Shown here: positions 10,651 through 30,486 of the stretch, in pieces
How positions within the stretch are numbered: the stretch's first letter is position 1
Layout: each line of letters begins with the position of its first letter
NCBI GenBank assembly: GCA_947170195.1
Contig: CAMVSS010000008.1
Span: forward strand, 1-34,883
Length of the DNA: 34,883 nt
Origin: an uncultured Treponema sp.
GTDB lineage: Bacteria; Spirochaetota; Spirochaetia; Treponematales; Treponemataceae
Direction of reading: 5' to 3'
Program-made: the position numbers and the translations under genes
Notes under the pieces: model-generated
Told to the model about the DNA's origin: nothing
Seen by the model: only the letters and a program-made list of their open reading frames with translations
Database searches by the model: none

Positions 10651-10657
10651 GACGATT

Positions 10658-10699
10658 GAGCAAGTTTCGAAAGTCTGTAACTTTTGAAACATTGCTTAC
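10658..10699. repeat. Intergenic palindrome family B copy
   Basis: GAGCAAGTTTCGAAAGTCTGTAACTTTTGAAACATTGCTTAC; imperfect palindrome shared with 15349-15399, 21895-21933 and 30324-30365. Confidence 0.7.
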
Positions 10700-10829: not shown

Positions 10830-10930
10830 GGGAACTTCGAAAATGCGACGTTCTAACTCTTGCTATTTTCAAGAGTTAGAACTCGGCAGCACATTCGAAA
10901 AATCGCTGAAAGCGAGTTTTTCAAAGTGCC
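10830..10930. repeat. Intergenic palindrome family A copy with an inserted hairpin
   Basis: GGGAACTTCGAAAATGCGACG + perfect 12-bp hairpin TTCTAACTCTTG-CTATTTT-CAAGAGTTAGAA (10851-10881) + GCACATTCGAAAAATCGCTGAAAGCGAGTTTTTCAAAGTGCC (10889-10930); ends 1 nt from the stop of the minus gene. Confidence 0.75.
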
Positions 10931-15348: not shown

Positions 15349-15399
15349 AATTGAGGCTGTTTCGAAAGTCAAGACGGACTTTTGAAACTCGCTCAATTT
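15349..15399. repeat. Intergenic palindrome family B copy
   Basis: AAATTGAGGCTGTTTCGAAAGTCAAGACGGACTTTTGAAACTCGCTCAATTT; immediately 3' of the rpiA stop. Confidence 0.75.
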
Positions 15400-19942: not shown

Positions 19943-20075
19943 AAAAACGACCGTCATTACGGTCTTATCAGGAGGCTTGCAAAAAAGCACGTCCGTGTGC
20001 TTTTTTGCGCGGCCGAGTTCTTGCCGTTGGCAACAACTCGCTATCCGTTGCCTCCGTGCAACGCCGCTAACGCGG
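19943..20075. repeat. Five-hairpin intergenic array (array X)
   Basis: 19949-19964 GACCGT-CATT-ACGGTC; 19979-20008 12-bp stem, loop GTCCGT; 20014-20040; 20046-20063 CGTTGC-CTCCGT-GCAACG; 20064-20075 CCGC-TAAC-GCGG. Confidence 0.9.
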
Positions 20076-20094
20076 GGTTTTTAAAGGAGTAATA

Positions 20095-21273
20095 ATGAAA
20101 AAACTTGTTTCTCTTGCTGCTGTTTTTTCCATCGGACTTTCGCTCATCGTTGCCGGTGAAAACGACTACGTAAAACGCGAAATCAACGCCCATGAACGCT
20201 GCCTTCCGACATTCGTCGAGGCATTAAAATCCAGAATGACTTTCTCCCTCGGCTGGAAAGACGGATCTGATCCCGCCGCATGGAAAAAAACGGGACTCGC
20301 AAAAGCCCGTGAGCTCATCATACAGAACGAAGACAACACGCCGTTCGACATGGTCGTCCTCGAAACAGAAAAACGAAAGGGCTATGTTGCTCAGAAAGTT
20401 GTGTTCAACATCAGCGCGGAAAGCCGCGTGCTCGCATATCTCCTCATTCCAAACGGAAAGAAGAACCAGACATTCCCGGCAGCACTCATGCTCCACGACC
20501 ACGGCTCAAACTTCATGATCGGCAAAGAAAAGATGGTAAAGCCGTTCGGAAAAACTGACGAAGACAAAGATCGGCTCAAGAAAGCCGAGGACTGGTCAAA
20601 AACTTATTTCTCAGGAAATTTCCCTGGCGACGAGCTTGCGAAGCGCGGTTACGTCGTACTCAGTTTCGACGCATTCGGATGGGGCGACCGCTCAGTAAAG
20701 GGATTCCGCACAGAATCTCAGCAGAGCCTTGCATCAAACCTGTTCAACATGGGAACAAGTTTCGCCGGAATCATCGCGCAGGAAGACTGCCGAGCTGCGA
20801 AATTCCTCGCATCGCTTCCTCAGGTAGACAAATCACGAGTCGCATGCGTCGGATTCAGCATGGGCGGATTCCGCTCATGGCAGCTTGCCGCAATCAGCGA
20901 CGACATCACTGCGGGAATCTCGGTTTGCTGGATCGGAACCATGAAAGACCACATCGTAGAGGATGACGGTCAGCTCAAGGGAAACAGCGCATTCAGCATG
21001 CTCCACCCGACAATCGCAAAATTCCTCGACTACCCTGACGTAGCGGGTCTTGCAGCTCCGAAACCGATGTATTTCGTGTCAGGTGACCGCGACGGTGTAA
21101 ACCCGGTTGAGGGAACCAAAAACGCATACGAAAAAATGCACAAAATCTGGAAAGCAAACGGCGCAGATGACAAGCTCGTCACAACTCTGACACCAGGTCT
21201 GACGCACTCATACCCTGCGGACCAGCAGAAGCTGACTTATGATTGGCTCGACGACATTTTCAACAACAAATAG
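20095..21273 (+). CDS. Secreted alpha/beta-hydrolase (dienelactone hydrolase / acetylxylan-esterase-like)
   Basis: Signal peptide MKKLVSLAAVFSIGLSLIVAG; LMLHDHGSNF, GYVVLSFDAFGWGDRS, nucleophile elbow GFSMGG, LTHSYP; SD AAAGGAG. Confidence 0.75.
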   Translation: MKKLVSLAAVFSIGLSLIVAGENDYVKREINAHERCLPTFVEALKSRMTFSLGWKDGSDPAAWKKTGLAKARELIIQNEDNTPFDMVVLETEKRKGYVAQKVVFNISAESRVLAYLLIPNGKKNQTFPAALMLHDHGSNFMIGKEKMVKPFGKTDEDKDRLKKAEDWSKTYFSGNFPGDELAKRGYVVLSFDAFGWGDRSVKGFRTESQQSLASNLFNMGTSFAGIIAQEDCRAAKFLASLPQVDKSRVACVGFSMGGFRSWQLAAISDDITAGISVCWIGTMKDHIVEDDGQLKGNSAFSMLHPTIAKFLDYPDVAGLAAPKPMYFVSGDRDGVNPVEGTKNAYEKMHKIWKANGADDKLVTTLTPGLTHSYPADQQKLTYDWLDDIFNNK

Positions 21274-21299: not shown

Positions 21300-21345
21300 G
21301 GGGAGCTTCGAAAAAATCTCTGAAAGCGTTTTTTTTGAGGCGCCC
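21300..21345. repeat. Intergenic palindrome family A copy
   Basis: GGGAGCTTCGAAAAAATCTCTGAAAGCGTTTTTTTTGAGGCGCCC abutting the stop codon at 21346 (minus gene). Confidence 0.7.
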
Positions 21346-21837
21346 TTATTCGATAATCAGGTATTCCTGATTGAAATCCTTGAGCATGTCCGGATTTTTT
21401 TCGGCTTCCTCAAGGATTTTTTTTGCGATTCCGTCCCCGATGACAAATTCCCTCACCCTCTCGAACGGCACCCGATTTATTGCGGGACAAGTATTTTCAA
21501 GCATCACTTTGAGCGCGCCGTCTTTTCTGCAGGCTCGGAGCGGCCATATCGAGCAGTCGAACGGCTTTTCATCTGAATCAAGAATGCATCCGCGCTCAGA
21601 ATCGAGGAACGGACAAGCAGCTTCTTCTTCCGGATCATCAGTTTTATAGGCATCATCAAGATTGACCGTATAGCTGTTTTTTGCCGCCGGCTTGAACACG
21701 GCGTGAGGATATTTTTTTTCGAGCAGATTTTTTTGTTTCTCGGAGAAAATCGGAGTCTCCCACAAACTTTTTCGCCTGAACGAGCAGCAGAATTTACACG
21801 CCGCGCAATCTTCAGAAGAAAGAATCTTTGAAAGCAT
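21346..21837 (-). CDS. YkgJ-type cysteine cluster protein
   Basis: CAACKFCC ... CPFLDSERGCILDSDEKPFDCSIWPLRAC ... CPAI. Confidence 0.8.
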   Translation of the reverse strand: MLSKILSSEDCAACKFCCSFRRKSLWETPIFSEKQKNLLEKKYPHAVFKPAAKNSYTVNLDDAYKTDDPEEEAACPFLDSERGCILDSDEKPFDCSIWPLRACRKDGALKVMLENTCPAINRVPFERVREFVIGDGIAKKILEEAEKNPDMLKDFNQEYLIIE

Positions 21838-21894
21838 TTTTCAACGCTCCTTATAAACATTCCGCATCAGCGGCATTTCATGCAGGCAACGAAT

Positions 21895-21933
21895 TAGGCA
21901 GTTTCAAAACTAACAGACTTTTGAAACTTGCTT
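21895..21933. repeat. Intergenic palindrome family B copy
   Basis: TAGGCAGTTTCAAAACTAACAGACTTTTGAAACTTGCTT. Confidence 0.65.
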
Positions 21934-21960
21934 GAATGCCAGCCCTTCTGCGAACGATTT

Positions 21961-27638: not shown

Positions 27639-27684
27639 GGGCACATTCTAAAAAGTCGCTTTAAGCGATTTTTTAGAAGTTCCC
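27639..27684. repeat. Intergenic palindrome family A copy
   Basis: GGGCACATTCTAAAAAGTCGCTTTAAGCGATTTTTTAGAAGTTCCC, begins at the base after the lyase stop codon. Confidence 0.8.
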
Positions 27685-27692
27685 ATAAGTCA

Positions 27693-29686: not shown

Positions 29687-29731
29687 GGGCCCCTCGAAGA
29701 ATCGCCGCAAGCGATTTTTCGAGGGGCTTCC
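29687..29731. repeat. Intergenic palindrome family A copy
   Basis: GGGCCCCTCGAAGAATCGCCGCAAGCGATTTTTCGAGGGGCTTCCC. Confidence 0.75.
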
Positions 29732-29737
29732 CTTTTT

Positions 29738-30259
29738 TTACTCAGGTTTCAGCTCAGGTCTTCGCAGCAATATTTCTTTAAGAACGCTCTGCCTCAGCTC
29801 CTCGGTCTCAAATCCGAGTACGACCTGCGCGCCGTTCTGTTTCAAAATCTCAAGGAAGCGTTTGTCAACGTTTTCAGTCTCCGGGTCGTCCTCATAAACA
29901 ACAGTCGGAAGACAACCGATGTCATCGAACGGAATGGCATAAGTGTCGTAAATCACCATGTTCTCATACACACCATTTATTCCGTAAGAAGAAGCCGCAC
30001 GCACGCTCATCTCAGCACCGATCAGTCCTACGAGCAGGAAAATAATCTCAAGATAAAACGCAAACTCCCTTAACGGCAGAATCACGATCAGCGCAGCGCA
30101 GAGCACAAAAATCAGAATTTGACGGATAGGAAAATCATTCGACAGCTTAAGAACTATATTTCCTGCACGAGAAAGCATCCTCTTCCTTCTGAACGGAATC
30201 GAAATCAAAAGTCCGGCAAAAACAAGCGCGGCTATTCCTGGAAAAACAAACTGGTTCAT
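29738..30259 (-). CDS. Hypothetical membrane protein
   Basis: 173 aa; N-terminal TM segments (FPGIAALVFAGLLI; ILIFVLCAALIVIL; FYLEIIFLLVGLIG); GGAG SD upstream. Confidence 0.7.
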   Translation of the reverse strand: MNQFVFPGIAALVFAGLLISIPFRRKRMLSRAGNIVLKLSNDFPIRQILIFVLCAALIVILPLREFAFYLEIIFLLVGLIGAEMSVRAASSYGINGVYENMVIYDTYAIPFDDIGCLPTVVYEDDPETENVDKRFLEILKQNGAQVVLGFETEELRQSVLKEILLRRPELKPE

Positions 30260-30298
30260 TTTCTAACTCCAATAAAAATACAGCATTTGCGCTATCGC

Positions 30299-30470
30299 GC
30301 GGCGTTGCACGCAAGCAACGGATGAGCAAGTTTCAAAACTCTGACTGGACTTTTGAAACTGCCTCGAATATGCAAGTTTTTGCTGACAGCAAAAACTCGG
30401 CCGTAATAAAAATTACATGGATGTAATTTTTACCATGCCTCTTTTAAAAAGTTCGCGGATGAACTTTTTA
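30299..30470. repeat. Modular hairpin array (array Y)
   Basis: 30303-30320 CGTTGC-ACGCAA-GCAACG; 30324-30365 family B palindrome; 30375-30397 AGTTTTTGC-TGACA-GCAAAAACT; 30407-30432 TAAAAATTAC-ATGGAT-GTAATTTTTA; 30445-30470 TAAAAAGTTC-GCGGAT-GAACTTTTTA. Confidence 0.9.
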
Positions 30471-30486
30471 TCATACATTCCTTCTT

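Follow-up and report, generated by a model that had tools for sequence, protein, structure and literature searches.

Two structured RNA families of Rfam clan CL00124 come closest to the locus described here. TD-2 (RF03162) is typed as an sRNA, and TD-1 (RF03155), whose consensus ends in UUUUUAUAGGA, i.e., a Shine-Dalgarno sequence (SD), is typed as Cis-reg. GGA hexaloops closed by a C-G pair occur in CsrB/RsmZ-type sponge RNAs and in leaders bound by CsrA; the consensus published for CsrA from SELEX, RUACARGGAUGU, has six-base loops, and ANGGAN is the motif bound by RsmE (PMC7652899). Small, interspersed, structured repeats that may end up in transcribed leaders include the pneumococcal BOX, RUP and SPRITE elements, of which BOX is modular (PMC3049150). 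A constant orientation, with the repeat ending immediately ahead of a start codon, is described for the TAACTGA repeats of marine Beggiatoaceae (PMC4679880), and Treponema integrons carry hairpin attC sites of 63-132 bp (PMC3607928). The literature that we searched, whose scope left out the original description of TD-1 and TD-2, does not describe repeats targeted to SDs in Treponema.

Here we analyse a window of 34,883 nucleotides (contig CAMVSS010000008.1 of assembly GCA_947170195.1, an uncultured Treponema sp.) that contains a four-hairpin element of 119 nt, referred to as X. We interpret X, with a probability of about 0.82, as one copy of a mobile, non-autonomous element found in the Treponemataceae and as a divergent, SD-associated subtype of TD-2/TD-1. 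Members of its family stand in a fixed orientation at the SDs of genes, are absent from orthologous sites of relatives and have SD-like sequence on both sides. Unlike BOX, RUP and SPRITE, which are over-represented between convergent genes of an unrelated organism and have no described tie to SDs, the family sits at translation starts. The TAACTGA repeats differ in being heptamer arrays, usually without an SD and without evidence of insertion. The element also differs from the attC sites of Treponema, as it lacks R boxes recognisable by eye and a cassette array and occupies single SD-adjacent sites.

Structure of the element and its copies

The repeat unit of the family is about 115 bases long, and X is a complete copy of it (Table 1). 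In gene sense, the consensus begins with GGAG, followed by hairpin A (GCATGATAAAAAGTAC-NTCCNT-GTACTTTTTATCATG), hairpin B (GCCGAGTTcTTGCC-GTT-GGCAAcAACTCGCTATC), hairpin C (CGTTGC-CTCCAT-GCAACG), hairpin D (CCGC-TAAC-GCGG) and AGTTTTTATAAGGAG-N5-ATG. A second SD is thus found at the far end of the element. Read on the minus strand, the loops of hairpins A and C of X are ACGGAC and ACGGAG, respectively. Folds of X beat those of shuffled sequences on both strands (z -5.4 and -5.2). The product of the downstream gene has a signal-peptide-like N terminus and appears hydrolase-like by eye.

Table 1. Positions of the element, its parts and associated features in the window.
Feature	Position	Strand	Basis
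Element X, complete copy, hairpins A-B-C-D between two GGAG (SD)	19971..20089	+ (gene-sense)	covariance model R1 140.3 bits; BLASTN E 4.7e-44
Distal GGAG, SD-like copy at far end of X	19971..19974	+	sequence; duplicated-flank statistics from other copies
Hairpin A of X, GCAAAAAAGCAC-GTCCGT-GTGCTTTTTTGC	19979..20008	+	sequence; covariation helix 1
Hairpin B of X, CGAGTT..TTGCC-GTT-GGCAA..AACTCG	20014..20040	+	covariation helix 2
Hairpin C of X, CGTTGC-CTCCGT-GCAACG	20046..20063	+	covariation helix 3
Hairpin D of X, CCGC-TAAC-GCGG	20064..20075	+	covariation helix 4
Proximal GGAG, SD of downstream gene, 5 nt before ATG	20086..20089	+	sequence
Gene downstream of X, with X in its leader; 392 aa	20095..21273	+	ORF list
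Rfam TD-2 (RF03162) match, model 1-98/98	19971..20063	-	40.5 bits, cut-off 48.7, E 4.4e-5
Element Y, upstream of minus-strand gene starting at 30259	30267..30442	-	R1 70.1 bits
Second hairpin A remnant adjoining Y	30443..30473	-	BLASTN 30 nt, 90% to hairpin A (L038); weak covariance model match
Element Z, decayed copy upstream of minus-strand gene starting at 21837	21848..21934	-	R1 36.4 bits, E 1.1e-8
TGAGCAAGTTTC-type palindrome repeat	10652-10690, 15352-15394, 21889-21927, 30323-30365

A first-pass annotation of the window, made from the sequence alone, had described X and a second array, Y, with a common order of modules. Both exist as described and share that order, and array X is real, although it was placed at 19943-20075 and in fact takes in hairpin D and the SD that serves the gene beginning at 20095. 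On the strand reported for each array the loops keep A[CT]GGA, except for the first loop of Y, which reads ACGCAA. The annotation missed the decayed copy Z and counted only two loci, where BLASTN with one copy (E<1e-3) finds about 40 dispersed, apparently mobile copies in the source genome (assembly of 2.36 Mb, 80% complete, 263 contigs). A 22-nt pattern of the first module occurs 10 times in the genome, against 0 for reversed-pattern controls. Together with the BLASTN copies, the fold z-scores and the scores of a covariance model (R1) built from 20 of the genome's copies, this excludes chance as the origin of the resemblance.

Copies vary in their completeness. Tandem arrays reach three units with common SD boundaries (L067). 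In some copies 25-30 nt are repeated, hairpin D included, which requires re-insertion or recombination and counts against a reading of simple insertion. Some copies are shrunk to hairpin D, or to C and D, with an SD ahead of the start codon (L204, L206, L212, L219, and in the source genome C12:139-167, C46:11037-11069, C17:16628-16662); the 3' ends of the element seem to persist after loss of the 5' parts. One copy (L034, G000:C9:26137-26266) is followed by AGGAGGGACCCCGATTCTTTAGGAGCCTCC... in place of an obvious start codon, possibly an RNA gene.

Other repeats lie between genes of the window. An imperfect palindrome, TGAGCAAGTTTC(A/G)AAAgTC...ACTTTTGAAACTTGCTCA, forms a separate intergenic repeat, one copy of which splits Y (at about 30323-30365) and another of which adjoins Z. 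Intergenic hairpins of the form GGGAACTTC...GTGCC or AAAATCGC..GCGATTTT (window positions 10830-10929, 21300-21345, 27640-27690 and 29690-29730) look like recurring repeats of terminator type.

Relationship to TD-2 and TD-1

At Rfam gathering cut-offs only tRNAs were identified in the window, and none of 20 loci tested had a match. TD-2 and TD-1 surfaced only in an E-value search, in which X matches RF03162 over its full length, with three hairpins in order, at a score below the gathering cut-off (Table 1). Most of the tested loci also match TD-2 in this search. The cut-off is reached in 25 of 96 genomes of the genus, often exactly at copies found with R1 (e.g., 59.8 bits at G090:C59, which is copy L051). 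Thus, the first-pass statement that no named family has this layout no longer holds, an unknown sRNA family is untenable, and we place X in a divergent SD-associated subtype of TD-2. Shared with TD-2 are the order of hairpins C-B-A and the A(N)GGAN loops on the GGA strand. Unlike the TD-2 model, X has the extra hairpin D and an SD at both ends, and its family occupies mRNA leaders, the opposite strand being the one typed as sRNA. TD-1 resembles X in its terminal SD; its hairpins are different ones, and X has no match to RF03155.

Of 19 strong TD-2 loci that were read, about 12 share with the element both its orientation and its placement at an SD and start codon, and about 7 are away from any SD, so that SD targeting is a trait of the subtype of X rather than of all TD-2. 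Strong TD-2 loci away from SDs, L353 (G049:C1:539003-539102) among them, adjoin further GGA-loop sequences and may be better candidates than X for a CsrA-binding sRNA. A second type of hairpin element was observed at SDs near R1 copies (L321:436-556, minus strand; L056:2979-3097, plus strand). These are TD-1 copies scoring 46.3 and 59.8 bits against a cut-off of 64.5, and the match ends at the SD. Similar-looking hairpins follow the near SD in L187 and L095.

Position at the Shine-Dalgarno sequence

The position of 125 copies was read, 23 from the source genome and the rest from relatives. On the gene-sense strand, 118 of the 125 end 0-11 nt upstream of the start codon of an ORF, abutting its SD, compared with 13/125 on the opposite strand and 29% of random same-strand positions. 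The remaining copies are for the most part in tandem, at a contig end or associated with short ORFs. A scan of GTDB genomes with a pattern for the 3' end of the element returned 116 stretches, from Treponema or spirochaete records throughout among the titles listed, and a start codon lies within 17 nt downstream in 119 of 124 matches. The downstream genes encode a mixture of housekeeping and transport functions: 129 Pfam families were assigned over 116 genes, no family occurs in more than 4, and no cargo or mobiliser gene is enriched among these 116 by Pfam.

A fixed sense orientation and SD position could also be produced by a cis-acting regulatory leader, in which the hairpins would govern how accessible the proximal SD is, or how far transcription reads through, and copies would persist because they regulate. 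In one version of this explanation the distal GGAGGC would exert the control by pairing with GCCUCC of hairpin C, and the predicted fold of X does contain this pairing, leaving the proximal SD open. In gene sense, the sequence upstream of the element is enriched in promoter-like sites (22% vs 9% in shuffled sequence), and TD-1, of the same clan, is typed Cis-reg. However, the functional mixture of downstream genes gives no regulon, and the element is patchily present at orthologous genes. The distal pairing is not general, as many loops read ATCC, and the mean openness predicted for the SDs is modest (proximal 0.47, distal 0.30). Nor is there an excess of G-U pairs for the gene-sense strand. 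We regard this reading as rather doubtful; cis-regulation and mobility can both be true together. We rejected sequestration of the SD by the loops as a general mechanism, since NTCCNT can form no more than three pairs with GGA, and its position 5 is free.

Empty sites and a putative flanking duplication

The element was found in 61 of 98 genomes of the genus Treponema, with 0-37 copies per genome, and in a sample of the Treponemataceae in 66 of 145 genomes, representing 9 of 20 genera. At adk, the element is present in the source genome and the 19 closest relatives have an empty site with a single SD; by this comparison the adk copy is a lineage-specific gain. When the flanks of occupied sites are joined, they match empty orthologous sites with one SD at purC, a gene for an AraC-type regulator and tpiA. 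The empty site of the AraC-type gene is TATAATATCCGTCTATAAGGAAAAAGAATG and the occupied site is TATAATGTCCACCAATAAGGAG[element]TTTTATAAGGAAAAAGAATG; ATAAGGA occurs once in the former and on both sides of the element in the latter. This is the one clean pair of an occupied and an empty site; at purC and tpiA the two sites have diverged too far for a clean duplication to be read.

Across copies, near and far flanks are more alike than permuted pairs at offsets -4 to +3 from GG and nowhere else. In the within-genome comparison the excess is at offsets -4 to -1, and in the GTDB subset of 37, which is smaller and restricted by the search pattern, the duplication is not significant. We read the match of about 8 bp, NNNNGGAG, as a putative target duplication. 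The fixed position at the SD, this flank match and the empty sites with one SD together argue for a mobile, SD-targeted element in mRNA leaders.

No transposase or integrase was found linked to the element, inspection of copies revealed no terminal inverted repeat common to the ends GCATGATAAAA... and ...GCGGAGTTTT, and no resident parent transposon with matching terminal inverted repeats was identified. Longer versions that might be autonomous, with hairpin A far from D, were not recognised in the 124 GTDB matches, and BLAST gave no match to plasmid or phage carriers. An IMG/VR contig classed as viral contains one full copy, immediately ahead of a start codon (L352:4190-4335).

A run of T at the 3' end of the element would suggest retroposition, which is made less likely by a duplication that is short and seems to be of constant length. 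Imperfect palindromes in many intergenic copies, with mismatches that are symmetric as DNA hairpins would give (see below), also recall REP-type repeats moved by a Y1 transposase (RAYT/IS200-IS605). However, Y1_Tnp is absent from G042, G048, G051, G059 and G083, genomes holding 14-28 copies, and its absence from several high-copy genomes speaks against this enzyme, which we rejected as the mobiliser. To our knowledge, the Y1 mechanism is not expected to duplicate flanks, which also counts against it. We give a REP-type origin scarcely any weight.

Covariation and strand

In an alignment of 114 copies, fitted to the covariance model, which favours pairing, compensatory changes occur at 30 of 30 pairs, 97.2% of cells pair and the covariation score is 0.403, compared with 0.112 for shuffled alignments. 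Hairpin A has compensatory changes at 12/12 of its pairs, and the stems of hairpin C are entirely exchanged between species, which is also visible in the raw sequence. The first-pass observation that stems differ and stay paired is thus borne out as true covariation, within the source genome and across genomes. Conservation of the module order and of the GGA-type loops likewise holds at both levels.

Mismatches do not favour either strand as the RNA (44 G-T vs 47 A-C, p 0.83), and the wobble test was therefore set aside as a means of choosing one. This symmetry would fit arms whose complementarity is maintained in the DNA, or solely while the element moves, followed by neutral decay. The 472 cells changed on both sides, and the large excess of such double changes over G-U intermediates, could also be produced by template-switch correction of the palindrome arms in an inert, vertically inherited repeat. 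Such correction could explain how the arms stay paired, but mobility is needed to account for the fixed placement at SDs, the empty sites and the gains in single lineages, and we consider it very improbable that correction accounts for the covariation of a repeat that does not move.

GGA loops and the possibility of an sRNA

On the strand read in the first-pass annotation, the loops of hairpins A and C have the form C-A(N)GGAN-G, in which only A and GGA are invariant; this exact pattern is present in about 85% of the loops of hairpin A. The ANGGAN hexaloop closed by C-G is that of a CsrA-binding hairpin, on the GGA strand only, and csrA is present in the source genome. Two such hairpins per copy, with a striking match to the published CsrA/RsmE consensus, together with the presence of csrA and the typing of TD-2 as an sRNA in the GGA orientation, would be consistent with a trans-acting sRNA that binds or titrates CsrA in the manner of CsrB/RsmZ. 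Unlike those RNAs, for which the likeness extends to the loops and their closing pair, the GGA strand of the element runs antisense to a neighbouring gene's leader in 118/125 copies.

The first-pass annotation had proposed a discrete RNA ending near 19943 in a terminator-like hairpin. At X this hairpin lies outside the element, in a flank that differs among copies, and the corresponding "U-rich" hairpin of Y is the remnant of a second hairpin A, also outside the element. No conserved terminator was found on the GGA strand across copies and no promoter-like site at X; across copies promoter-like sites on this strand are not clearly enriched (10% vs 6% in shuffled sequence). Given these results and the antisense orientation, the discrete sRNA is unsupported, and we treat a role of CsrA as possible rather than as the explanation. 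Wobble pairs are not in excess for the GGA strand, and a copy number of 0-37 with empty orthologous sites also speaks against an sRNA, which we judge improbable.

Proposed mechanism and significance

For the mobile, SD-targeted element that we favour, we predict that a staggered cut at the SD duplicates about 8 bp. The gene would thereby retain an SD with normal spacing to its start codon, so that the insertion would be tolerated. Once inserted, the element would be transcribed within the mRNA leader, so the GGA strand would normally be antisense. The arms may be kept paired by the mobility step itself, if this step recognises hairpins, either of an RNA intermediate or of DNA in single-stranded or cruciform form; alternatively, arm-to-arm correction may maintain them, rather than selection at each site on one RNA strand.

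More tentatively, and at rather less than even odds, the TD-2 subtype and TD-1 may form a class of mobile elements that home to and regenerate SDs by means of an undescribed enzyme. Such a class may carry hairpins of CsrA type, or leader structures, to dozens of mRNAs and in this way act as a transposable regulator of translation. A target this sharp and biologically meaningful is rare among small bacterial repeats. If this reading is true, the Rfam entries TD-1 (a cis-regulatory RNA) and TD-2 (an sRNA) would at least partly represent mobile DNA, and entering at a ribosome-binding site while leaving one behind would amount to a "safe-site" strategy at translation initiation.
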